A DNA stretch of 64,000 bases. Origin: Halosolutus amylolyticus. Its GTDB lineage: Archaea > Halobacteriota > Halobacteria > Halobacteriales > Natrialbaceae. The position numbers and the translations under genes were made by a program. This document shows, piece after piece, positions 9,648 to 37,304 of this stretch (the first letter of the stretch is position 1; each line of letters begins with the position of its first letter). The stretch covers positions 62,001-126,000 of the forward strand of contig NZ_JALIQP010000003.1 in assembly GCF_023566055.1 (NCBI RefSeq), in the 5' to 3' direction. Under the pieces are notes generated by a model. That model was not told where the DNA came from and ran no database searches. It saw nothing but the letters and a program-made list of their open reading frames with translations.

Positions 9648-10085
9648 TCAGACCTCGTTTTCCTCCTCGAGTTCGTCGAGGAACTCGTGGGCGTCCTCCA
9701 GGATTTCCCGTGGTCCGTCCTGCGTGACGGTGTTTACTGCCTGTTCGTAGTCGCGCCACTGGAGGTCGCGATGTTCGTTGGACAGTTCCGCGCTGGCCTC
9801 GAAGGACTTCGCGACGAAGAGGTGAACGGTTTTGTGGATCGTTTTCCCGTTCGCCTCGAAGACGTAGTCGTAGTCCTTGCGAAAGCCGTCGAGTAGCCGG
9901 AACTGTTCGATACCTGCCTCTTCCTTTACTTCGCGGATCGCCGTCTGTTGTAGCTCTTCATCTCCTTCGACACCGCCCTTGGGAAACTCCCAGTCACCTG
10001 GGCGGCTCTTGAGTAGAAGATACTCGCGCCGGCCCCGCGTATCGCGGAAGAGGATTGCGCCTGCGCTCGTAGCTTCGACTGCCAT
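9648..10085 (-). CDS. Nudix hydrolase, Ap4A hydrolase type
   Basis: A 145-residue Nudix enzyme. The Nudix box runs from GGVEGDEE through REVKEEAGIE (about residues 37-60), matching GX5EX7REUXEEXGU. The preceding EFPKG and the overall size resemble bis(5'-nucleosyl)-tetraphosphatases, which cut dinucleoside polyphosphates. The C-terminus is very acidic. A TATA-like CTCTTAACG lies about 28 bases before the start, and the gene diverges from the S10-like gene. Confidence 0.88.
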   Translation of the reverse strand: MAVEATSAGAILFRDTRGRREYLLLKSRPGDWEFPKGGVEGDEELQQTAIREVKEEAGIEQFRLLDGFRKDYDYVFEANGKTIHKTVHLFVAKSFEASAELSNEHRDLQWRDYEQAVNTVTQDGPREILEDAHEFLDELEEENEV

Positions 10086-10196
10086 TACCCAAAATAACGG
10101 GTGCGTCGTTAAGAGAATATCGGACTGTTCGTCCAGCGGAGACGTATCTCAGCAGGTTTTTACCCGCTGGCCGTAGACGTTCCCACAGCACCAGCC

Positions 10197-10532
10197 ATGA
10201 CCTTCGTCACCCGTCTCACGCTCCAGAGCGGCGATAGAGCCGCCCTCGATGCGATCGTCGACGACATCAAATCGACGGCCGAGCGCAAGGGGGCCGCGCT
10301 GAAAGGGCCCCACTCGCATCCGCCGGAAAAACTCTCGGTTCCCCAGCACGCTCGGCTCCACGGCGACGACGATCGGCGGTTCTCCTCGTGGGACTACACG
10401 GTCTTCACGCGGGAACTCGAGATCCACGGCCACGACAACCTCGCGCGAAACGTCGCCGAACAGAATTTCCCTGACTCGGTCCACATCGAGGCCGAGGTCG
10501 AACAGATCCACGGCGTCGGCCGCGGGAACTGA
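10197..10532 (+). CDS. uS10/mL48 family ribosomal protein paralogue
   Basis: A 111-residue protein resembling ribosomal protein S10: TRLTLQSGDRAALDAIVDDI at residues 5-24, the loop KGPHSHPPEKLSVPQHARL (about 41-59) where S10 has its proline-rich extended loop, and a C-terminal strand YTVFTRELEIHGHD. It is not the canonical rpsJ, which in archaea is coupled to tuf. Haloarchaeal genomes carry this second copy; whether it enters ribosomes is not established as far as I know. TATA-like GGTTTTTACC precedes it by about 35 bases. Confidence 0.82.
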   Translation: MTFVTRLTLQSGDRAALDAIVDDIKSTAERKGAALKGPHSHPPEKLSVPQHARLHGDDDRRFSSWDYTVFTRELEIHGHDNLARNVAEQNFPDSVHIEAEVEQIHGVGRGN

Positions 10533-10596
10533 ACGGGAGAGGCAGACCGGTCTCGGTGCCGATACTTATTGGTGGGCCGCCGATCTCTCTCCGGGT

Positions 10597-11922
10597 ATGA
10601 CCGACTCCGATCTCGTAACCCTTCGCCGTGACCTGCATCGCAAACCGGAACCCGCCTGGCGGGAGTTCTACACGACTGCCCGGATCGTCGAGGAGCTCCA
10701 GTCCCGCGTCGATCTGGACGCTCTCCACGTCGGCCCGGACGCGATCGTCGCCGACCAGCGGATGGGCGTCCCCGACGCCGCGGAACTGGCCGCCTGGCAC
10801 GATCGGGCCCGGGAGGCGGGCGCCGATCCGGACCTGCTGGACGACCTGGAAGGCGGTCACACGGGTGCCGTCGCGGTCGTAGAGCGCGGCGAGGGACCGA
10901 CCGTCGGCCTCCGGGTCGACATCGACGGCCTCCCGCGTCCCGAGAGCGACGACCCCGACCACGCGCCCGCCGCGGCGGGCTTTCGGTCCGAACACGAGGG
11001 AGCGATGCACGCCTGCGGGCACGACGCCCACGCGACGATCGGGATCGGCGTCCTCGAGCGGATCGCCGAGAGTGGTGAGGGACTCGACGGGTCGCGATCC
11101 TCGTCGGAACAGGGTTCCGACGGTGATTTTGCGGGGACGCTGAAGGTGTTCTTCCAGCCGGCCGAGGAGGTCATCGGCGGCGGCAAGTCGATGGCCAAAA
11201 GCGAGCACCTCGCGGACGTCGACTACCTGCTGGCGCTCCACATCGGCCTCGACCACCCCACCGGCGAGATCGTCGCGGGAATCGACGGCTTCCTCGCCGT
11301 GCGCCACCTCGACGCGACGATCACGGGCGAATCGGCCCACGCGGGCGGCCACCCCGAACAGGGACGCAACGCCGTTCAGGCGATGGCGACCGCGGTCGGG
11401 AACCTCTACGGTATCCCCCGGCACAACGACGGCGCGACGCGGGTCAACGCGGGCGTCGTCGAGGCCGGCAGTGCATCGAACGTCATCCCCGAAGAAGCGT
11501 ACATGCAGGTCGAAGTCCGCGGCGAGACGACCGACCTGATGGAGTACATGACCGAAAACGCCGAGCGCGTCCTCCGATCCGCCGCCGAGATGCACGAGTG
11601 TGACGTCGAAACCGAGATCGGCGCGGAAGCGCCGAGCGCGACGAGCGACGAGGAACTGGTATCGATCGTCGCCGACGCGGCCGGACGCGTGGACGGGGTC
11701 GAGAACGTCCTCGAGCGCGATCGACTCGGCGGGAGCGAGGACGCGACCTACCTGATGCGGGAGGTCCAGCAAAACGGCGGCCTGGCCTGCTACGTCGGCG
11801 TCGGCACCGACCATCCCGGCGGCCACCACACCGCGACGTTCGACGTCGACGAGGACAGTATCGGTCACGGGATCGAGACGATCGCCGGCGCGATCGAACG
11901 GATCGCTCGCGATCAGCCGTAA
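10597..11922 (+). CDS. M20 family amidohydrolase
   Basis: A 441-residue metallopeptidase-fold enzyme of the M20D type (AbgA, indole-acetyl-amino-acid hydrolase and aminoacylase relatives). Metal-site motifs: LRVDIDGLPRPE near 108-119, MHACGHDAHATIG near 137-149, FFQPAEEVIGGGK near 184-196 with the catalytic Glu pair, and LALHIG near 211-216. The dimerisation domain contains GESAHAGGHPEQGRNAVQA near 247-265. The long insert around residues 55-95 (VADQRMGVPDAAELA) points to the aminobenzoyl-glutamate-hydrolase-like branch. The substrate is an N-acyl amino acid or peptide, not determinable here. Confidence 0.87.
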   Translation: MTDSDLVTLRRDLHRKPEPAWREFYTTARIVEELQSRVDLDALHVGPDAIVADQRMGVPDAAELAAWHDRAREAGADPDLLDDLEGGHTGAVAVVERGEGPTVGLRVDIDGLPRPESDDPDHAPAAAGFRSEHEGAMHACGHDAHATIGIGVLERIAESGEGLDGSRSSSEQGSDGDFAGTLKVFFQPAEEVIGGGKSMAKSEHLADVDYLLALHIGLDHPTGEIVAGIDGFLAVRHLDATITGESAHAGGHPEQGRNAVQAMATAVGNLYGIPRHNDGATRVNAGVVEAGSASNVIPEEAYMQVEVRGETTDLMEYMTENAERVLRSAAEMHECDVETEIGAEAPSATSDEELVSIVADAAGRVDGVENVLERDRLGGSEDATYLMREVQQNGGLACYVGVGTDHPGGHHTATFDVDEDSIGHGIETIAGAIERIARDQP

Positions 11923-11950
11923 CGTCGAGGCCGCTGCGGTCGGTGCGGAC

Positions 11951-12033
11951 TATAGTAGCGACTGAAACGATTTACACACTGATCGCAACGCTGTCCTGCG
12001 ATCAGGTATGCATTGACTTTTAGTTGCTACTAT
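11951..12033. repeat. Palindromic repeat family A, copy 2
   Basis: Reads TATAGTAGCGACTGAAACGA at the left and ends TTTTAGTTGCTACTAT, with the inner GATCGCA/TGCGATC pair. It lies between the convergent M20 gene and the DUF4397 lipoprotein gene. The right end encodes the last three codons (Ser-Ser-Asn) and the TAA stop of the lipoprotein gene. Confidence 0.9.
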
Positions 12034-12844
12034 GTTCGTCGCCGTGGGCGTCCGAAACGACTTCGAGATCGAACGCCTCGTCGACGGGTGCCGCTCCGGG
12101 TTCGAGGTAGCCGACGGCGAACGCGGAGTAGACGCCGCCGGCCTCCGTGGCGACGTCGAACGTCGCGACGACGTCGCCGTCGTTGCCGTCGGTCGCGGGA
12201 CGCACTTCGAGGGTGTACTCGCCGGCTTCGACCTCGACCGTGGCGGCGTCGCCGAAGGCGGCGTCCTCGAACAGGACCGTCTCGCCGTCGCCGACGGTGA
12301 CGTCGACCGCGGGCGCGTCGGGGGACGCGTGGACGAGTCGGACGCGAGCCATCTCGCCCGGGTCGCTCAGGTCGTCCTCGAACACGGCGACCTCGAACGG
12401 CTGGTTCCCCTCGGCGAGTTCGCCGATCGCGGCGACGGTGACCGCACCCGCCGTCACCTCGAGGTCCTCGTCGAAGACGACTGTATTGGGGTCGCCGGCA
12501 GCCGTGATCATCACGCCGTACGTGCCGGGATCGAGTTCGAGGTAGTCGCTGACGTCCCGGAAGGGAACGTCCTCGAGTACCGGTTCGTCGTCGACGTAGA
12601 CGTCGACGTTCGGCGCGTCCGGCGAGAGGTGCGCGACGCGGACGTGGGCGGGGTCGTCCCCCATCGCTTCGTCGTCGCCCATCTCGTCGTCCGCACCGTC
12701 GTTCATGTCGTCATCCGTGCCGTCGTCCATATCGCCGCCCATTTCGTCGTTGCCGTCGTCGCCGCCGAGACAGCCAGCCACGAGCGCGATACCGGTTCCG
12801 CCCGCGATCGACAGGACACGACGCCTGGAATGCTTGTGAGACAT
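12020..12844 (-). CDS. DUF4397 domain lipoprotein (Tat-exported)
   Basis: A 274-residue secreted protein. The N-terminus has a Tat motif (RRRVLS near residues 6-11) followed by a hydrophobic stretch and a lipobox VAGC near 22-25, so it is probably lipid-anchored outside the cell. A low-complexity Asp/Gly/Met linker (about 28-65) leads to two DUF4397 repeats, each opening ARVRLVHASPDAPAVDV or VRVAHLSPDAPNVDVYVDD (about 68 and 165). DUF4397 is a beta-rich extracellular domain of unknown function. The final codons Ser-Ser-Asn-stop come from the adjoining family A repeat. Confidence 0.88.
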   Translation of the reverse strand: MSHKHSRRRVLSIAGGTGIALVAGCLGGDDGNDEMGGDMDDGTDDDMNDGADDEMGDDEAMGDDPAHVRVAHLSPDAPNVDVYVDDEPVLEDVPFRDVSDYLELDPGTYGVMITAAGDPNTVVFDEDLEVTAGAVTVAAIGELAEGNQPFEVAVFEDDLSDPGEMARVRLVHASPDAPAVDVTVGDGETVLFEDAAFGDAATVEVEAGEYTLEVRPATDGNDGDVVATFDVATEAGGVYSAFAVGYLEPGAAPVDEAFDLEVVSDAHGDEHSSN

Positions 12845-17131: not shown

Positions 17132-18295
17132 TCAGTCGACGAAGTCGATGTCGTCGCCCTGCGGTTCCGGCTGGACGGCCTCGCCGTCCGGGCGGCCGTA
17201 GATCTGGGGCGATTCGACGCCCGTGACGACGATCATCGTCCGCATACTGCCCTCGAGCGTCTCGTCGATCGAGGTCCCCCAGATAATCCGCGCGTCGGGG
17301 TCGATCCGGTCGTAGATCTCTTCGACGACGCCCTCGGCCTCCTCGATGGCCATGTCGTTGCCGCCGGTGACGTTGACCAGCGCGGAACTCGCCCCGGAGA
17401 TGTCGACGTCCAGGAGGGGCGATCGCAGGGCGGTCTTGACGGAGTCCTCGGCCTTGGCCTCGGAGTCTGCCTCGCCGAGACCGATCATCGCGACGCCGCC
17501 GCGCTCCATGACGGTCCGGACGTCGGCGAAGTCGAGGTTGACGAGGCCGGGTTTCGTGATCAGTTCCGTGATGCCCTTGACCGAGCGCATCAGCACCTCG
17601 TCGCTGACCTTGAACGCCTGCCGGACGGGGAGTTTGCCGACCGAGTCGAGCAGGCGATCGTTGGGGACGACGATCACGGTGTCGGAGACGTCGCGCAGGC
17701 GCTCGAGACCGGCTTCGGCGTTCGTCCGGCGGACCTCACCTTCGGCGGTGAACGGCGTCGTGACGATCGAGATCGTCAGCGCGCCGGCTTCGCGGGCCGC
17801 CTTGGCGACCACGGGCGCAGAGCCGGTCCCGGTGCCGCCGCCGAGGCCGGCGGTGACGAACACCATGTCCGAGCCGTCGATCGCGTCGTAGATGTCCTGC
17901 TGGCTCTCGAGGGCGGCCTCCTCGCCGACCTGGGGGAGCGACCCGGCGCCGCGGCCGCCGGTCTTGTCCTCGCCCATGAGGATCTTGGTGTCGGCCTCGA
18001 TCTCCACGAGGTGCTGGACGTCGGTGTTGGCGGCGACGAGTTTCGCGCCGTGGATCCCCTCCTCGTGCATGCGGTTGATGGTGTTCCCGCCGGCACCGCC
18101 ACAGCCGACGACGGTGATGTCGGTCTGGAGGTCCTGGAGAACGTCTTTCAGTTCGTCGTCGGTCATCGTCCCCGTGTCTCGGGTACCGTCTGACGCCCCC
18201 TCGGAGGATTCGTGGCCATCCTGTGGCACGCCGCCGGGAGTCTCCCCCGACTCCCCTTCGGCCTCGTCGATGGCGTCGTCGATGATGGAGTCCAT
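17132..18295 (-). CDS. ftsZ1: Cell division protein FtsZ, FtsZ1 type
   Basis: A 387-residue tubulin-superfamily GTPase. The N-terminal tail [15 protein letters not shown] is the mark of haloarchaeal FtsZ1, which with FtsZ2 forms the midcell ring and acts as an assembly scaffold. GTP-binding motifs: [15 protein letters not shown] near 60-74, the tubulin signature [12 protein letters not shown] near 149-160, and the T7 synergy loop NLDFADVR near 249-256. The C-terminal tail ends in DDIDFVD. Upstream is an AT-rich region with GTAATATACC and GGTAATTATG as TATA candidates. Flanking genes are not divisome genes. Confidence 0.95.
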
Positions 18296-18453
18296 TCTTG
18301 ACACTGACTAAAAGATGGAGCATAATTACCTTTCCCCTACACGTCAGCCGCGCGTCTGACACGTAAACGGTATATTACATATCTACAATCGAATGTGAGG
18401 AACGCGAATTACGTCGGCGGGTAAGTCTGAATTAGTGTCTCATTTCCCTTCGA

Positions 18454-19776
18454 TCAGATCGGGAACTCGTGAGTCTGCCGGCTGGAAACTCTCTCAGGAG
18501 TGACCTGTTCGCCGTCGATCGTAACCGACTCGCCCGAGGCGAGCGCGCCGAACTTCGGTCCCTCCGGGACGCCGACCTCGCGAGCGAGCGCCGGGTCGAA
18601 CGCGGTCTCCTCGGCGACGACGGCATCGTCCTCGATCCGTACCGTCTCGTACTTCCGTTCGAGCACCGCCGCCAGCGCTTCGACGATCGCGTCCCGGTCC
18701 TCGATCGCCGGGACGGCCGCCGTCGAACCGACGCGACTGCCCCCGTTCTCGGTCGCGAACGCGACGGTGGTCTCCTCGACGATCGTTCGCACCCGATCGG
18801 GATCGATCGCCTCCGCGGCGTCGACCAGATCTCCGGGGAGGTCGACGACGACGAACGACGACTCGCGTCGCCCGCCGAACCGGACGCCGTCGTCGACGGG
18901 GCCGAGGTCCGTCTCGACCGCCTCGACGAAGGCGAGCGATCGGTCCGCGACCTCGCGGAGCCACGTCTCGCTCACGACGCGGTAGCCGAGGTCCTCGATC
19001 GTCGCCGCGAGGTCGGGGTGGTCGCCGTCGAGTACCGCGATGTCGGCCTCGCTGGCCGCGAAGGCTCGATCGAGCACGTCCCGGTGGCTGGCCGGTCGGC
19101 CCATCGCCTCGAGCGCCCAGTCGGCGGCGACGTGGCCGACGGCCCACGGCGTCTCGCGGACGATCCGGCCGAACCGGGGCGCGTAGTGGTTGCCGCCGAA
19201 GCCGACGACCTGGCGCCGGCGGTGTGGATCGACCCCGCGCAGGTCGAGGATGGCGCGCGCGACGGCCTCGGCACCCGCCGGATCGTCCCACTGTTCGTCG
19301 CCGCTGCCGAGTTCGGCGAACAGCGACGGACACCCCACCGCGGACGGGCCGTGGTGGGTACACTCCATCCCGACGTCGTAGCCGTCGGGAGCGTACTCGT
19401 CGAAGGCCGCGAGGAGGCGATCGAGCGCGTTCGGAGCCGCTTCCGCGAGGGCCTCGTCGTCGCCGCCGAACTCCGCCGGGCCGAAGTTCCCCGTGAAGTG
19501 GCCCGTCAGGAGCCGGCCGGTGTCCCCGGAGTGGCGCGAGGCGAACACCAGCAGGTCGGGTTCGCAGTCGAACGCGTCGGCGGGCGACTCGAGTTCGATG
19601 TGGAGGCCGTCGAACGAGCGGAGTTCGGCACCGTCAGTCCGGTAGTAGGTGCCGCCGCCGTCGGCCGGATCGCGGTCGTCGTCGGTCCGTTCCGTCCAGT
19701 CCGCGCGCTCGCGGAGGTGGTCACAGATGTGGACCGACGCGCGATCGGCGCGGCTTTCGACGATGGCGAGGGTCAT
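18454..19776 (-). CDS. dtdA: D-aminoacyl-tRNA deacylase DtdA
   Basis: DtdA (the archaeal/plant GEK1 type) removes D-amino acids mistakenly attached to tRNA. The 440-residue protein carries VFASRHSGDTG (near 77-87), GMECTHHGP (near 136-144) and VGFGGNHYAPRF (near 190-201), the zinc-dependent core of the family. The region after about 280 is a long C-terminal extension common in halophilic archaea and absent from shorter archaeal homologues. It diverges from the PAS/Bat regulator with about 150 bases between starts. Confidence 0.93.
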   Translation of the reverse strand: MTLAIVESRADRASVHICDHLRERADWTERTDDDRDPADGGGTYYRTDGAELRSFDGLHIELESPADAFDCEPDLLVFASRHSGDTGRLLTGHFTGNFGPAEFGGDDEALAEAAPNALDRLLAAFDEYAPDGYDVGMECTHHGPSAVGCPSLFAELGSGDEQWDDPAGAEAVARAILDLRGVDPHRRRQVVGFGGNHYAPRFGRIVRETPWAVGHVAADWALEAMGRPASHRDVLDRAFAASEADIAVLDGDHPDLAATIEDLGYRVVSETWLREVADRSLAFVEAVETDLGPVDDGVRFGGRRESSFVVVDLPGDLVDAAEAIDPDRVRTIVEETTVAFATENGGSRVGSTAAVPAIEDRDAIVEALAAVLERKYETVRIEDDAVVAEETAFDPALAREVGVPEGPKFGALASGESVTIDGEQVTPERVSSRQTHEFPI

Positions 19777-19928
19777 ACCGGAAGCGGGGGCGGGAGGCCG
19801 TTAACGGAATCGATTCGCCGTTCCCGGAGGTGCGTGAAGGCGCCGCATATTACCATAGGTGGCGCGCGGTAGCCGGTGACGAACTTTTGCATATGGCCGA
19901 ACTAGTGATACGTCCTTCGATACCCAAG

Positions 19929-22289
19929 ATGACCGATACCGATCGGACTGGTGGGCCGGACGAGTTTCCCGTCGAGGCGCGTCGGGTAGCCAATCTGGTA
20001 CCCAACTGTGCGATCTACGTCCTCGATCGGGACGGCTACGTGGCGGTCTGGAGCGAGGCTGCCAGTCGACTCACCGGCTACCCCCAGTCCGACGCCGTCG
20101 GCATCCACTACGAGCAGTTCTTCCCGGACCCGGTACGCGAAGAAGACCGGGCCGAGCAACTGCTCTCCGAGGCGGCCGCGGACGAACAGGTCCGGACCGA
20201 GGGGTGGCGGCGGAAACGCGACGGTTCGTTGTACCGGGCCCGCGAGGTCCTCGCCGTGGTGCGAGACGGGGACTCGGCGGCGGCGAACGGATACGTGGTC
20301 GTCACGCACGACGTGACCGTCGAGCACGAGCAGGCGGACGCGCTTCGCACCGAGAAGGCGGTCGTCGAGAGCATTCTGGACGCGCAGCCGGACATCCTCT
20401 ACGCGTTCGACCGCGACGACACCCTGCTTCACTGGAACGATCGGCTCGAGACGGTGACCGGCTACGATCCCGACGACCTCGCCGACATGGGGCCGCTCGC
20501 GTTCGTCGCCCCGGAGGACCGCGACCGGATCGGGGAGGCGATCGATCGGATCCTCGAGGCGGGCGATCGGGTCGCGCTCGAGGGGACCCTCCTGACTGCG
20601 GCGGGAGAGCGGCTCCCCTACGAGTTCAACAGCGCCCCGATCGTCGACGAGCACGGGACCGTGCTGGGCTTTACCGGCGTCGGCCGGGACGTCAGCGACC
20701 GACGGGCGCGCGAGCGGGAACTCCGCGAGGAGCGGGCGTTCACGGAGAGCGTCTTCGCCGCCCAGCCCGACATCGTCTACGCGTTCGACGCGGACGGAAC
20801 CTTCCGCAAGTGGAACGAGCAGGTGCCGGCCGTCACGGGGTACTCGGACGCGGAACTGGCCGAGATGGAGCCGGACGAGTTCGTCCCCCCGGAGGACCGC
20901 GACCGGATCGGGGAGGCGATCGATCGGATCCTCGAGGCGGGCGAGCAGACCACCGCGGAGGCGGAGCTCCTGACGAAAGACGGCACGCGGATTCCCTACG
21001 AGTTCAGCGGGGCCCGAATGCGCGCCGAGGACGGCACCGTGCTGGGATTCACCGGCGTCGGCCGCGACGTGAGCGATCGAAAGGCACGCGAACGAGAACT
21101 CGAACGGATCGACCAACTCAACGGCGTCATTCGGGCGATCAACGACGAACTCGTCAGTGTCGAGACGCGACGGGAACTGGAGCGGGCGATCGTCGAGGCG
21201 TTCGTCACTGTCGACTCGATCGCCGGGGCGGTCGTCGGCACGTACGACGCCCCGGACGGGTTCGATCCGCGCGTCCAGGCCGGCGGCGACGTGCCGGCGG
21301 ACGCCGGCCTCCTTCCCGAACCCGCCGAGGCGTCGGCGGTCGACCCCGCAGACATCGCCGGGGAACGGGAACGCGTCGCGACGCGTCGCCACCTCCAGGA
21401 GGACCCGATCGACGAGTGGCGGGCCGTCGCCGACGAGGACGGCTACCGCGCCGTCGTGGCGGTCCCGTTCGTCGCAGAACGGCGGCTGGTCGGTATGCTC
21501 GGGCTGTACGCGTCGGTTCCGGACGCGTTCGATGACCGCGAGCGAGAGATCCTCCAGGAGTTCGGCGGCACGATCGGCCACGCGATCAACGCGATGGCAG
21601 TTCGACGCCTCCTCTACGCGGACACCGTCGTCGAACTCGAGTTCGAGGCGACCGATCGCGGGGACGTGTGTATCGACCTCTCCCGGGAGGGCGACTGTCG
21701 GCTCTCGATCGATCACCTGCTCCCGTTGACCGACGAGGTGTTCGTCTACTACCTCACCGCGTCCGGGATCGACGCCGATCGGTTCCGTGATCTCGCGACG
21801 GCACGGCCGGAGATCGGGGAACTGCGCCGGATCGACGGCGACCCGACGGCCCACCGCTGGGAGGTCGAGATCCACGGCTCGACGATTGCGGCCTTTCTCA
21901 CCGAGTACGGTGCGCGGGTTCGCTCCCAGGAGATCGACGGCGGAGTGGCGACCCTGGTCGTCGAGGCGAGCCCCGACACGGCGGTTCGCGAACTCACCGA
22001 CGCCTTCCAGTCGACGTACCCCGAGACGACTCTCGTCGCCAAACGGACCGTCGAACGACCGCTCGACGCGGGCGGCGACTTCGGATCCGCGATCGACCCG
22101 GACCTGACGGAGAAACAGCGGACGGCGCTCGAGGCGGCCTACTACGGCGGCTACTTCGAGTGGCCCAGCCGGCAGAGCGACGCCGGAGACGTCGCCGATC
22201 GGCTCGGCATCGCTCGCCAGACGTTCCACCAGCACCTGCGCGTGGCCGAGGCGAAGCTTCTCGAGGCGTATCTCGAGGACGGGACCTGA
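19929..22289 (+). CDS. PAS-GAF-Bat-type transcriptional regulator with HTH_10
   Basis: A 786-residue haloarchaeal regulator of the bacterio-opsin activator (Bat) family. Order of domains: three PAS domains (about 18-140, 150-265, 275-390, each with the IxAxDxDGxxxxWN-like core and a final GVGRDVSDR block), a GAF domain (about 410-580), the Bat-associated domain (about 590-735), and an HTH_10 DNA-binding domain (ADRLGIARQTFHQHLR near 755-770). PAS2 and PAS3 share a 58-base identical stretch. Sensor ligand and targets are unknown; Bat itself responds to light or oxygen. The start MTDTDRT was chosen as the first ATG compatible with the domain order. Confidence 0.9.
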   Translation: MTDTDRTGGPDEFPVEARRVANLVPNCAIYVLDRDGYVAVWSEAASRLTGYPQSDAVGIHYEQFFPDPVREEDRAEQLLSEAAADEQVRTEGWRRKRDGSLYRAREVLAVVRDGDSAAANGYVVVTHDVTVEHEQADALRTEKAVVESILDAQPDILYAFDRDDTLLHWNDRLETVTGYDPDDLADMGPLAFVAPEDRDRIGEAIDRILEAGDRVALEGTLLTAAGERLPYEFNSAPIVDEHGTVLGFTGVGRDVSDRRARERELREERAFTESVFAAQPDIVYAFDADGTFRKWNEQVPAVTGYSDAELAEMEPDEFVPPEDRDRIGEAIDRILEAGEQTTAEAELLTKDGTRIPYEFSGARMRAEDGTVLGFTGVGRDVSDRKARERELERIDQLNGVIRAINDELVSVETRRELERAIVEAFVTVDSIAGAVVGTYDAPDGFDPRVQAGGDVPADAGLLPEPAEASAVDPADIAGERERVATRRHLQEDPIDEWRAVADEDGYRAVVAVPFVAERRLVGMLGLYASVPDAFDDREREILQEFGGTIGHAINAMAVRRLLYADTVVELEFEATDRGDVCIDLSREGDCRLSIDHLLPLTDEVFVYYLTASGIDADRFRDLATARPEIGELRRIDGDPTAHRWEVEIHGSTIAAFLTEYGARVRSQEIDGGVATLVVEASPDTAVRELTDAFQSTYPETTLVAKRTVERPLDAGGDFGSAIDPDLTEKQRTALEAAYYGGYFEWPSRQSDAGDVADRLGIARQTFHQHLRVAEAKLLEAYLEDGT
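20509..20566 (+). repeat. Direct repeat in PAS2, identical to 20887-20944
   Basis: 58 bases are identical between the second and third PAS domains, coding for PEDRDRIGEAIDRILEAG. Flanking PAS sequence is much more diverged, which suggests local gene conversion or a recent internal duplication. Confidence 0.9.
20887..20944 (+). repeat. Direct repeat in PAS3, partner of 20509-20566
   Basis: Second copy of the 58-base identity inside the same gene, lying 378 bases downstream, exactly 126 codons, so the reading frame is preserved between the copies. Confidence 0.9.
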
Positions 22290-33985: not shown

Positions 33986-34094
33986 AGCTGGCGTTGGTCG
34001 CTGGGGATGTTAACAGTTGTTGGTAATGTGATTTACTTTATTCAGTCTGACCGACCTGGACACTGTGGAATCCTTGCCGGTCATTGTTCGTTTG

Positions 34095-35081
34095 TCAGTG
34101 CTCCGACTTCGGCTTTTCTATCTGTTTCTTGATATTAGTTCCATCTGGAATGACTGGCTTCACTCGAAGCTCTCCGAAGCCGTACTTCGAGTGGTTCCCG
34201 ACGCGGGTGAGGCCGGACATTGCAGTCTCTACCGGGCGGTCGCCGTCGTAGCCGACGACCACGCCGTGATCGACGGTCTCCAACTCGTAGACATCTCCGC
34301 CCTCGATGACCTTCTCCAGCCGCTTCCGGAGTTGCGCTTCGTCGTCTACGCTCCACCACCAGGGGACGTCCACGTTGTTCGCCTTCGGGTACTCCGACCG
34401 GAGGACGAACGGTGTCACGAGTTCGAGGATGAACTCCTCGCCGTCTTCGAGACGCGAGTAGTCCAGCGACTCCAAGTCAACGACCTGCGTGTCTATCAGC
34501 GTGGTCGTCCCGTAGCCGTAGTTCCGTTTACCGCCGAACTGGTGGCCGTCAAGCGGGTGGTCGGCGTTCACCGACCACCTATTCCGTGGCGGCGAGGCCG
34601 CCACGCTGTCCTCACCGAGAGGCAGAACGTCCGGGTTATCGGCGTGCAAGTAGGCGTTCACGTACCAGCGCGTGGTCTGCTGTTGTTTCCGAGCGTCGTC
34701 GGGCCGGCCCATGATCGTCTCGTGAGCCAGCGCGGGCATTCCGCTCTGGAACCGGATGTCGTGGGCGTTCAGCCCGTCGCGGGGTCGGGTATCGAGTAGC
34801 CACGGATTGTCGGGGCACCGGAAGAGGAACAGGTCGTCGTAGCTCTCCACGTCGGGAAGCGACGACCCCATGTACGGGCGAATTCCGCTCTGTGAGTGCT
34901 CTTCGGGGAACGTTCCAAACTGACCGGGGACGAACATCCCGTGACTGGCGTTGATATGCCGGTGGACGTCATGCTCCAGCTGCATCCCGAGCGCGTGGTA
35001 GATCGCGTTCCCCGAGACGTAGTACGGGTGGCCGAGGTAGTCCATGTCGAGTTCCCAATGAATCTGCTGGATGCGGGTCAC
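34095..35081 (-). CDS. RAMP-fold protein of an HRAMP-type derived CRISPR system (Cas5/Cas6-like)
   Basis: A 328-residue protein, last in a three-gene operon. It has two glycine-rich loops of the RAMP type: GGKRNYGYG near 183-191 and GNHSKYGFG near 295-303, the second just before a final strand (ELRVKPV) as in Cas6/Cas5 proteins. The N-terminal strand (QIHWELDMDYLGHPYYVSGN) and helix fit a ferredoxin-like fold. The GTG start overlaps the previous stop by 4 bases (GTGA). Assignment as the diverged Cas5 of HRAMP is inference from order and motifs; a Cas6-like role is the alternative. Base composition is lower in GC than flanking genes. Confidence 0.7.
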   Translation of the reverse strand: MTRIQQIHWELDMDYLGHPYYVSGNAIYHALGMQLEHDVHRHINASHGMFVPGQFGTFPEEHSQSGIRPYMGSSLPDVESYDDLFLFRCPDNPWLLDTRPRDGLNAHDIRFQSGMPALAHETIMGRPDDARKQQQTTRWYVNAYLHADNPDVLPLGEDSVAASPPRNRWSVNADHPLDGHQFGGKRNYGYGTTTLIDTQVVDLESLDYSRLEDGEEFILELVTPFVLRSEYPKANNVDVPWWWSVDDEAQLRKRLEKVIEGGDVYELETVDHGVVVGYDGDRPVETAMSGLTRVGNHSKYGFGELRVKPVIPDGTNIKKQIEKPKSEH

Positions 35082-35860
35082 GCGTTCTCCCTTCGGGTTT
35101 CGAGATCCTCGATGTACTGGAGCGCGGTGCTCCAACTCCAGATTCGCCGGAGGTTCGCGTCGAGTACCATGTCGTGCTTGTCGTGGTTGACATCGAGCGG
35201 GTGTTCGGTGAGGCGCTTCCACGCCGACGCCCACGACCGCCACGGGCGGCTTCCAAGGCGCGCCCACGGGTTCCAGTCCCCGCTCTCGTCGATTCGAAGC
35301 GCGAAGCGGTCGCCCGCGTAGACCGTCCGGTGAGGCACGACCTCCTCGGTGTCGTCCACGACCAGGAGGAGATCGGCGAACTCGTGACCGACGCGGTAGT
35401 TGTCCAAGAGCGCCGCCACGAGCAGCGTGTGGTACTTCAGGCTGGTGTACGGGTAGTAGATGCTCTCGTTGAAGCCGCTCGCAACGTCCGACGTGAGCCA
35501 CGCCCGATGCATCGCCTCGGGGTCGGAGCCCGTCAGCAGGTCGGTGATGGCCTCAGAGAGACGCGGGCGTGAGAGCTCCTCGGAGTCGTAGTGAGAGGTG
35601 CCCGTCAGCAGCGAGAGCCGGTAGTGCGTCTCGTGGTTATCCACTGTCTGTTCGGGCTTCCCGTTGGGCCGTGAGAGCGCCGACGCGTCGCCGTCCGCGC
35701 CGTGCGGGACGGTCCGGTTCACCGGGACGCCGTGAAAGGTGTCCGGGGCGTAGTCATGCGTCTCGCCATTGAGCTTGTGGGCGTCGTGGCGGTAGGCCGC
35801 GACCATCACGTCCTGGCCGCCGTCGCTCTGGAAGTCGCTGAGGGTGACGTTCTCGCCCAT
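35078..35860 (-). CDS. Uncharacterised middle protein of the HRAMP-type operon
   Basis: A 260-residue protein I cannot assign to a known fold. It has no transmembrane segment, no zinc knuckle and no nuclease motif that I can see. The second half is helical and Trp-rich (about 195-250, with RPWRSWASAWKRL and RRIWSWSTALQYIEDL), and a LLLVVDDTEEVV beta segment lies near 164-175. It starts directly after the Cas7-like stop codon and overlaps the next gene by 4 bases, so all three are translated from one message. Position and size fit the conserved uncharacterised component of HRAMP systems. Confidence 0.65.
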   Translation of the reverse strand: MGENVTLSDFQSDGGQDVMVAAYRHDAHKLNGETHDYAPDTFHGVPVNRTVPHGADGDASALSRPNGKPEQTVDNHETHYRLSLLTGTSHYDSEELSRPRLSEAITDLLTGSDPEAMHRAWLTSDVASGFNESIYYPYTSLKYHTLLVAALLDNYRVGHEFADLLLVVDDTEEVVPHRTVYAGDRFALRIDESGDWNPWARLGSRPWRSWASAWKRLTEHPLDVNHDKHDMVLDANLRRIWSWSTALQYIEDLETRRENA

Positions 35861-36724
35861 CTACGGCCCCTCCGCGATGCGCTCTTCCAGCGCCTCCACG
35901 AACACCGGACGGTACTCCTTGGCCCACTGTTCGTCTTTCTCGCCCATCTTGTTCGTGTTGCCCTTCCCGCGGTCGAAGACGCGCTTCAGTTCGCGCTCTT
36001 CGTACAGCGGATTGATGAAGTGGCAATCGACGATCCCCGCGCCGAAGTTGCGAGCACCACCGAGCTGGTGCATGAAGTCCGTCTGGTGCCCATCCAGGAA
36101 GTCGATCCCCTCCGCGAGCAGACCGATGAACTCGGGCTTCGTCTCCCGGAGTGAGAGATGCCAGCAGCCGTCCAGATTCGCCACGGCGTCGATTTCTGCG
36201 TTCCGAAGCGGTTCGCGGTTATCTTCACGATTCCGAGAAACGACGTTCCGGTTGAGCCGGCGGTAGTGGCCTTCGGCCTGTCCGCGCGTGTAGTCCACGC
36301 TGGAGCGGACGGGGTTAAATTTGATCGGGCGACGCATCACCTTTCCCGGCTGGTTGCCGAAGCCACCGAAGAGGTCGAAGACCACACATCCGTCATTCTC
36401 TTTTGGGTCATCGACGCACGCACCCTTCTCGTGGTAGCCGTCATCGAGATCACGCTCGTAGACGCCGTCTTTCATGAAGTTCGCGTTGGACTCGCCGGGG
36501 TGGCAGGCGGTGCCGTCGTACTCGTGGACAACGCGCTCCATCCCATGGCGAAGCCACCCAGAAAGAGGAAACGCCGGAATGATCCCGCCGATCTGGTTTT
36601 GTGGATCGGTGTCCTCGTAGTTACCGTTCGAGGCGTGGTGTCTGTCAGTCATGATGCTGTCACCGACTACCAGTAAGTCGGTCTGGATTCGCACGAATAC
36701 GTCGCAATCGATGTCTTCAATCAT
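35861..36724 (-). CDS. Cas7-like RAMP protein of an HRAMP-type derived CRISPR system
   Basis: A 287-residue protein, first in the operon. RAMP hallmarks: IPAFPLSGWLRHGMERV near 49-65 (compare the IPGSSLKGxxR helix of Csm3/Cmr4), LFGGFG near 118-123, RSSVDYTRGQAEGHYRR near 140-156 (the RxxxDRxTGxA-like segment), and the glycine-rich loop LGGARNFGAG near 221-230. These follow in the order seen in Cas7 backbone proteins. Asp38 and Asp40 fall where Csm3 carries its RNA-cleaving Asp, but conservation cannot be judged. A TATA box (TTTAAA, 36753-36758) about 30 bases before the ATG supports this start. Confidence 0.75.
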   Translation of the reverse strand: MIEDIDCDVFVRIQTDLLVVGDSIMTDRHHASNGNYEDTDPQNQIGGIIPAFPLSGWLRHGMERVVHEYDGTACHPGESNANFMKDGVYERDLDDGYHEKGACVDDPKENDGCVVFDLFGGFGNQPGKVMRRPIKFNPVRSSVDYTRGQAEGHYRRLNRNVVSRNREDNREPLRNAEIDAVANLDGCWHLSLRETKPEFIGLLAEGIDFLDGHQTDFMHQLGGARNFGAGIVDCHFINPLYEERELKRVFDRGKGNTNKMGEKDEQWAKEYRPVFVEALEERIAEGP

Positions 36725-37157
36725 GGTGGCCCAGTTTCGTGACCTGATCACGTTTAAAGGTCAGCGAGTATCGAGTGCGTTCTTCAGGGCGGAGCGAAAC
36801 GGCGCGGAGGTGCTGGCAGAAAAGTTCCGTAGTAGATGGGGGGTAGAGACCTCATGTCGAGTAATCAAGAATCGGTTTCTGCCACAGTCGGGTTCGAGTC
36901 AGATTGAACACCGGCTGTTCCTGTTCGGCTACGCGGTGCTGCTGTACAACATGTGGACGGTGGCGAACGCGATTGGTGCCGACCGGGACGACGATCACGA
37001 CCTCAGCGAGGACGGGAAATACTGGAAGACGGTCGTGTTCCTGAGTAACATGATTGATGACCCGGCGTCACTCGAAATTGGGGAAGTTCCCGAGGGAGAG
37101 TTATCAGAATTCATCGAGATGATTCAGAGCGATTTTTACTTGAAGTTCAGCGTCTGA
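36723..37157 (+). pseudogene. IS4-type transposase, C-terminal remnant
   Basis: A 144-residue remnant of a DDE transposase. The IS4 YREK signature is recognisable as FRSRWGVETSCRVIK (Phe for Tyr, then R-x3-E-x6-K), holding the third catalytic residue, followed by HRLFLFGYAVLLYNMW, the helix typical of halobacterial IS4-like elements. The first two catalytic Asp residues and about two thirds of the protein are missing, and no terminal inverted repeats are visible. It begins at a CATG shared with the divergent Cas7-like start. It records an insertion and deletion next to the RAMP operon. Confidence 0.78.
36753..36758 (-). promoter_or_regulatory. TATA box of the RAMP operon
   Basis: CCTTTAAACG on the minus strand, centred about 31 bases before the Cas7-like ATG, which predicts a nearly leaderless transcript. 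Between it and the ATG is an imperfect palindrome, CGTGATCAGGTCACG (36736-36750). No other promoter is visible between the three genes. Confidence 0.55.
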
Positions 37158-37304
37158 AAGAGTTCGTTTCCACTCACCCCTCGAGCTGAATAACATCACC
37201 TACATTGCCAACTACTGTTAAAGGGTCGGCAGACGAGCGGCCCCGACACGGGACGGTCCGGCGTACCGAAATGTTCACCACGGGTGGCGCGTAATCGAGG
37301 GCCG

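Follow-up and report, generated by a model that had tools for sequence, protein, structure and literature searches.

The window analysed here is a 64,000-nt stretch of the genome of the haloarchaeon Halosolutus amylolyticus. Three of its minus-strand genes, here called P1, P2 and P3, form a CRISPR-related operon with the make-up of HRAMP, and the operon lies between the ends of a transposon that has lost the N-terminal part of its ISH3-like transposase. HRAMP (haloarchaeal RAMP) systems contain homologs of Cas5 and Cas7 along with nucleases and uncharacterised proteins, lack CRISPR arrays and are derived from type III systems (PMC8730458, PMC12669027); the nucleases are "typically" HNH or PD-(D/E)xK enzymes (PMC12669027). 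The features, in window coordinates, are as follows.

34010 to 34013, no strand: first copy of the target-site duplication, TTAA, where the empty site of the congener G001 (L135) has one TTAA
34014 to 34042, no strand: terminal inverted repeat beside the P3 gene, 29 bp, CAGTTGTTGGTAATGTGATTTACTTTATT, recognised by the sharp stop of homology at one base in ~25 loci with unrelated flanks
34095 to 35081, minus strand: P3, predicted Cas5-like (Csm4/Cmr3-like) RAMP protein, 328 aa, GTG start, from a PADLOC Cmr3 match, Csm4 matches in the PDB and a Csm4 profile
35078 to 35860, minus strand: P2, predicted reduced Cas10-like protein, 260 aa, with a conserved HD motif and without GGDD, from Foldseek, VIA and motif conservation
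35861 to 36724, minus strand: P1, Cas7-like RAMP protein by its AlphaFold model, 287 aa, whose best Foldseek matches are all of the Cas7 family
36753 to 36758, minus strand: TATA-like promoter element TTTAAA, with a predicted (near-)leaderless transcript, in a segment common to L032, L036 and L207-L209
36791 to 37157, plus strand: C-terminal remnant of an ISH3-like DDE transposase with the catalytic-E block RWGVETSCR kept, found as G000:C3:98813-99115 in host-genome coordinates
37189 to 37217, no strand: terminal inverted repeat beside the transposase remnant, 29 bp, AATAACATCACCTACATTGCCAACTACTG, from inverted-repeat comparison
37218 to 37221, no strand: second copy of the target-site duplication, TTAA, from the empty-site comparison
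34014 to 37217, no strand: the whole element, an internally deleted, non-autonomous HRAMP transposon of 3204 bp, from its ends, duplication and empty site

The three genes are tightly coupled, as had been proposed in an earlier sequence-only reading of the same DNA. Their open reading frames give a junction of 0 bases between P1 and P2 and a 4-base overlap, GTGA, between P2 and P3, which starts with GTG. The single TATA box which that reading placed before the operon is the TTTAAA element, 28 nt upstream of the P1 ATG, and the Cas7/Csm3-like blocks and glycine-rich RAMP loops that it quoted are found in the sequence. About 47 loci of haloarchaea have kept the trio; a single protein scan picked up relatives of P1 in 34 haloarchaeal loci, and P3 is present in 52 of 199 related genomes. 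Pairwise ratios of nonsynonymous to synonymous substitution rates (dN/dS) between close copies are mostly 0.05-0.14 for P1, 0.1-0.3 for P2 and 0.05-0.2 for P3, and those of the window trio against its nearest relatives are 0.06-0.32. Given these low values and the conservation, the trio consists of real genes under purifying selection and not of chance reading frames. No relative was found in the phages and viral contigs searched. The trio is annotated as "hypothetical protein" in the gene tables of two plasmid records, and other annotated plasmid matches to P1 are likewise "hypothetical protein" or unannotated.

Searches of the PDB with the sequences of P1 to P3 gave nothing significant, nor did a Pfam search with P1 or P3, and the assignments were made from modelled folds, profiles and motifs. 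With the AlphaFold model of P1, Foldseek returned 80 matches at E<=0.001 (best E 1.1e-5), the top 50 of which are all Cas7-family chains (types VII, III, IV and I-D), and VIA gave Z scores up to 10.5. P1 is, by its modelled fold, a Cas7-like RAMP protein; the earlier assignment agrees with these matches, which reach Cas7 proteins of types VII, III and IV at E 1e-5. P3 matches Cmr3 in PADLOC (E 3.3e-4) and the archaeal Csm4 profile over a glycine-rich loop (E 0.004), and a profile search of the PDB gave four weak matches, three of which are Csm4 chains. These profiles point with moderate strength, weaker than for P1, to a Cas5/Cmr3/Csm4-like protein. The sequence-only reading had called P3 "Cas5/Cas6-like"; the Cas5 half holds, and there is no sign of Cas6.

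The middle protein, which the same reading left unrecognised, is identifiable as a reduced Cas10. Its AlphaFold model (pLDDT 85.6, pTM 0.88) finds Cas10, Csm1 or Cmr2 in all of the first 29 Foldseek matches (best E 1.6e-2, probability 0.97) and Cas10 in all 50 entries listed by VIA, the best being Csm1 4uw2_A (Z 13.1 over 235 residues at 3.8 A). All 46 relatives share, without change, the residues that fit the Cas10 HD motif (H25, D26, H28, K29, H35 and D56), and none of them has the cyclase motif GGD or GGDD. By itself, profile alignment of P2 to archaeal Csm1 falls short of significance, though it places the P2 motif "PYTSLKYHTLLVAALL" opposite the Cas10 motif "PDISLYDHLKTTAAIA". Since the E-value is modest and the sequence profile not significant, the assignment rests on fold, motifs and operon partners together. 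As modelled, P2 is a Cas10 that has kept the HD nuclease motif and lost the cyclic-oligoadenylate palm motif. Conserved in 46 loci, it fills the slot of the "additional conserved uncharacterised protein" of HRAMP.

The operon is enclosed in a transposon. When the DNA of relatives is aligned, homology ends at one base 3' of P3 (about 34010) and the flanks beyond are unrelated. The stop is the transposon end, (AATAAAG..AATC..ATT..)AACAACTG followed by NTAN, and an inverted copy of that end lies past the transposase remnant on the opposite side of the operon. The conserved sequence 3' of P3 was also considered as a CRISPR-like repeat or a terminator; both were rejected in favour of the transposon end. 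In the congener G001 the window flanks adjoin each other at one TTAA. The left 427 bp of the element, on the side of the transposase remnant, match full elements, and the remnant is 89% identical to the left end of L031; the right part begins about 96 bp upstream of P1. The window copy is an internal-deletion derivative in which the N-terminal part of the transposase and the small genes were lost and the trio, its promoter and both ends were kept. The transposase remnant, the inverted ends and the TTAA duplication had all gone unnoticed in the sequence-only reading.

A common rule holds across elements: 29-bp ends CAGTTGTTGGTAAT... and 4-bp NTAN duplications. When both ends were picked on sequence alone, 12 of 17 elements proved to have identical 4-bp duplications, with a chance expectation of about 0.55% per element: the window and L051, L208 (TTAA), L031 (TTAC), L036, L040, L205 and L209 (ATAT), L038 and L207 (ATAA), L052 (TTAT) and L063 (ATAG). 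The five without identical duplications are L032, L122, L126, L132 and L206, of which L126 and L206 differ by one base. L043, L121 and L134 also match and were left out of the 17, their left end having been accepted with the help of the match. Complete copies (L031, L037, L040, L052, L115 and L121) are ordered as follows: a DDE transposase of ~610 aa, small genes of uncharacterised function, P1-P2-P3, and the transposon end, which lies 84-141 nt from the P3 stop.

The transposase passes the Pfam DDE_Tnp_1 threshold (PF01609) and matches the NCBIfam ISH3 model NF033541 with E 1e-23 to 1e-38, its 82-131 bits lying under the cut-off of 225; on these profiles it is a distant ISH3 relative only. 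Among 293 genomes, its close relatives almost always adjoin the trio and more distant ones are not beside it. At least two transposons of these more distant relatives have related ends CAGTYCTCGGTAAT and 4-bp duplications but no HRAMP genes (L125:7832-12606 and L131:8947-15450). The second bears cargo of another kind, and the pair hint that archaeal transposons with cargo form a wider family. An intact trio is found in 22 loci with enough upstream DNA and a full transposase in only 7 of them; the sample was collected through P1, which favours intact trios. Four distantly related transposase lineages bear the same core clade, and in L037 and L121 the transposases are 91% identical and the cas cores 67-82%; elements have swapped transposase and cas-core modules with one another.

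A tree of the concatenated trio divides into two groups with 100% SH-aLRT support, one associated with the transposon and the other a sister clade (L065-L081) that is homologous in its three genes and differs in its surroundings. In the sister clade no transposon end lies within 300 nt of P3 (0 of 17 loci), an RNase-H-fold exonuclease-like gene and an HNH gene each occur in 16 of 17, and the genes are more widely spaced. Identity between the lineages is ~57% for P1, ~50% for P2 and ~45% for P3. The host itself has a second HRAMP copy (L065, G000:C1:643776-646651), which belongs to the sister clade, bears the nucleases and lies outside any recognisable transposon. Searches for the HNH and RNase-H-fold genes in 33 transposon-clade loci found none at the element; the nuclease matches in L037 come from another copy, of the nuclease type, 6-8 kb away. 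L037 thus has a transposon-type and a nuclease-type HRAMP (10001-12653 and 18056-20861) on opposite strands, about 6 kb apart. Two loci without recognisable ends, L057 and L059, are the earliest branches within the transposon lineage. Transposon capture and the absence of nuclease genes coincide on one branch, in either order.

Guides were sought in several places. The host genome, reported as 99.98% complete, has no cas1, and none of the standard haloarchaeal I-B repeat was found in it, arrays with other repeats not having been scanned; within that scope, the earlier statement that cas1 and an array are missing from the window is borne out genome-wide. Presence of P3 is correlated with cas1, which is found in 27 of the 52 genomes that have P3 and in 36 of the 147 that lack it (p 0.0005). 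Borrowing of host CRISPR RNAs as the general guide was rejected all the same, 25 of the 52 P3 genomes, including this host, being without cas1; it is possible in some hosts and, on present evidence, not in this one. A conserved RNA of ~82 nt with a three-way junction lies ahead of the small genes in most full elements (L031:8321-8402) and occurs in the sister clade; an Rfam scan of the loci gave no match to it. In its outer stem one strand has two alternative pairing partners, the 5' strand and the bases that precede the ATG, as in a switch. Searched for across genomes, it turned up in 47 of 199, as the 5' leader, ending at the ATG, of many unrelated haloarchaeal small-ORF operons. It was therefore taken as a leader and rejected as the HRAMP guide, and in the window it is deleted. 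Lastly, the 150-nt target flanks of 11 insertions gave no match to the element above background, and a target-site guide within the element was rejected; the comparison covers only guides encoded within the element. The insertion sites share only NTAN.

On the strength of the folds computed for P1 (Cas7) and P2 (Cas10), the anatomy of the transposon with its ends, duplication and empty site, the purifying selection and a host without cas1, we favour, with a probability of about 0.6, a miniature type III effector that is carried as mobile transposon cargo and probably has a defensive role. The Cas7-like backbone, Cas5-like end subunit and HD-bearing dwarf Cas10 would form a miniature type III-like effector, which may assemble on RNA and act on foreign nucleic acid, the HD domain doing the cutting. 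A haloarchaeal DDE transposon with a long ISH3-like transposase would carry the trio as cargo, and its mobility would account for the patchy, repeatedly transferred distribution. Carriage as cargo is preferred because i) the trio outlasts loss of the transposase in most of the intact-trio loci; ii) one core lineage is found with several transposase lineages and the modules recombine; iii) relatives of the transposase move without the trio, as in L125 and L131; and iv) other defence-like genes can share the element.

The same reading sets the operon among known systems. The diverged Cas7 and Cas5 homologs, conserved third protein, missing array, haloarchaeal hosts and type III likeness are those of HRAMP, and the HRAMP make-up claimed for the operon matches the published summaries (PMC8730458, PMC12669027). 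The differences are that the third protein is predicted to be a reduced Cas10, that an ISH3-like transposon carries the genes and that the nucleases that typically accompany HRAMP are missing, no nuclease gene being found in the window element. As the source describes nucleases as "typically" present, the window lineage is termed nuclease-less with an HRAMP core, and not standard HRAMP. Type III (Csm/Cmr) systems have the same set of Cas10, Cas5 (Csm4, Cmr3) and Cas7 (Csm3) and an HD motif in Cas10; here, in contrast, the predicted Cas10 is ~260 aa long without GGDD, no array was found, the host is without cas1, and neither Cas6 nor Cas11 was recognised.

Several points weigh against the mobile defence effector. 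We infer the complex, its bound RNA, cleavage by the HD domain and the defensive role; the P1 fold comes from a model of moderate confidence (pLDDT 70) and the P3 assignment from sequence profiles. The HD motif of P2, with a presumed activity, is the sole remaining nuclease candidate, and the lack of nucleases in the transposon clade is also what loss of interference would lead one to expect. The PADLOC matches for extra cargo genes are weak.

In a rival reading, which we consider improbable, the Cas7/Cas10/Cas5 core with an RNA guide would select or license the insertion sites of the ISH3-like transposase, as in a CRISPR-associated transposon (CAST). Here as in CASTs, Class 1 effector genes without an adaptation module lie inside a transposon with defined ends. 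Known CASTs typically are interference-defective CRISPR modules within transposons (PMC11656645). The dedicated nucleases of the free clade, their absence from the transposon clade and the constant placing of the trio near one transposon end also speak for this reading. The HD motif, however, is intact in all 46 relatives, the targets have only NTAN in common, and the flanks of 11 insertions gave no match to the element above background. Related transposases function without the trio, transposase and core recombine, and no TniQ- or TnsC-like partner was found among the small genes. In known CASTs, effectors of types I, IV and V are associated with Tn7-like, Mu-like or telomeric transposons (PMC12669027, PMC11656645), whereas the machinery here is a single ISH3-like DDE transposase. 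In ISH3 insertion sequences the DDE domain is of the same kind (NF033541, PF01609), but the transposase here is longer, scores under the curated cut-off and is accompanied by several kb of cargo.

It is equally doubtful that the trio serves the element itself by capping its copy number, destroying rival or resident copies or blocking host silencing, with element transcripts as guide. The trio stays linked to the end of the element and is retained in deletion derivatives, and hosts often have several copies or fragments (for example, 11 matches in G129). Yet several related copies are tolerated per genome, no element-derived guide was found, and the sister clade retains the trio, together with nucleases, outside any recognised transposon. 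Nor is it likely that the window copy is non-functional and decaying, carried along passively since an old insertion: it lacks a full transposase, the small genes and the leader RNA, and many copies elsewhere are broken, but its three open reading frames are intact, its promoter is good, its dN/dS against the nearest relatives is low, and the host's second, nuclease-bearing copy shows that the system is retained in the genome.

In the literature searched, neither HRAMP within a transposon nor a Cas10 in HRAMP is reported, the original 2019 description by Makarova and colleagues not being covered; both are likely to be new. With a dwarf Cas10 as its third protein, HRAMP becomes in outline a complete minimal type III effector, and with one named complex the guide can be sought by pull-down. 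The transposon lineage and its nuclease-bearing sister offer a natural comparison of whether the core works without nucleases, and the element, with its ends, duplication rule and empty site, is a ready vehicle for a haloarchaeal transposition assay. If the core affects transposition, this would be a fourth transposon type tied to Cas effectors; otherwise it is a mobile module for defence, and its spread is accounted for. Should the improbable CAST-like case prove true, it would mean RNA-dependent transposition unrelated to Tn7 or Mu, the first outside the Tn7-, Mu- and telomeric families and the first from type III.

Copies of the element vary in content. On Halobacterium plasmids, two larger elements (L205:6454-17386 and L206:1127-16228) carry HRAMP and an AAA-TPR (STAND-like) gene, and L206 also bears DUF4238; in both, the cargo lies between one pair of transposon ends. 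A TnpB-like C-terminus with a zinc-ribbon motif runs directly into P1 in L045, L047 and L048. TnpB was rejected as a partner, since it precedes P1 in these three loci only. In G129 the matches to P3 are nearly all short fragments, scattered across the 2.7-Mb genome, and they look as if many old insertions were decaying.

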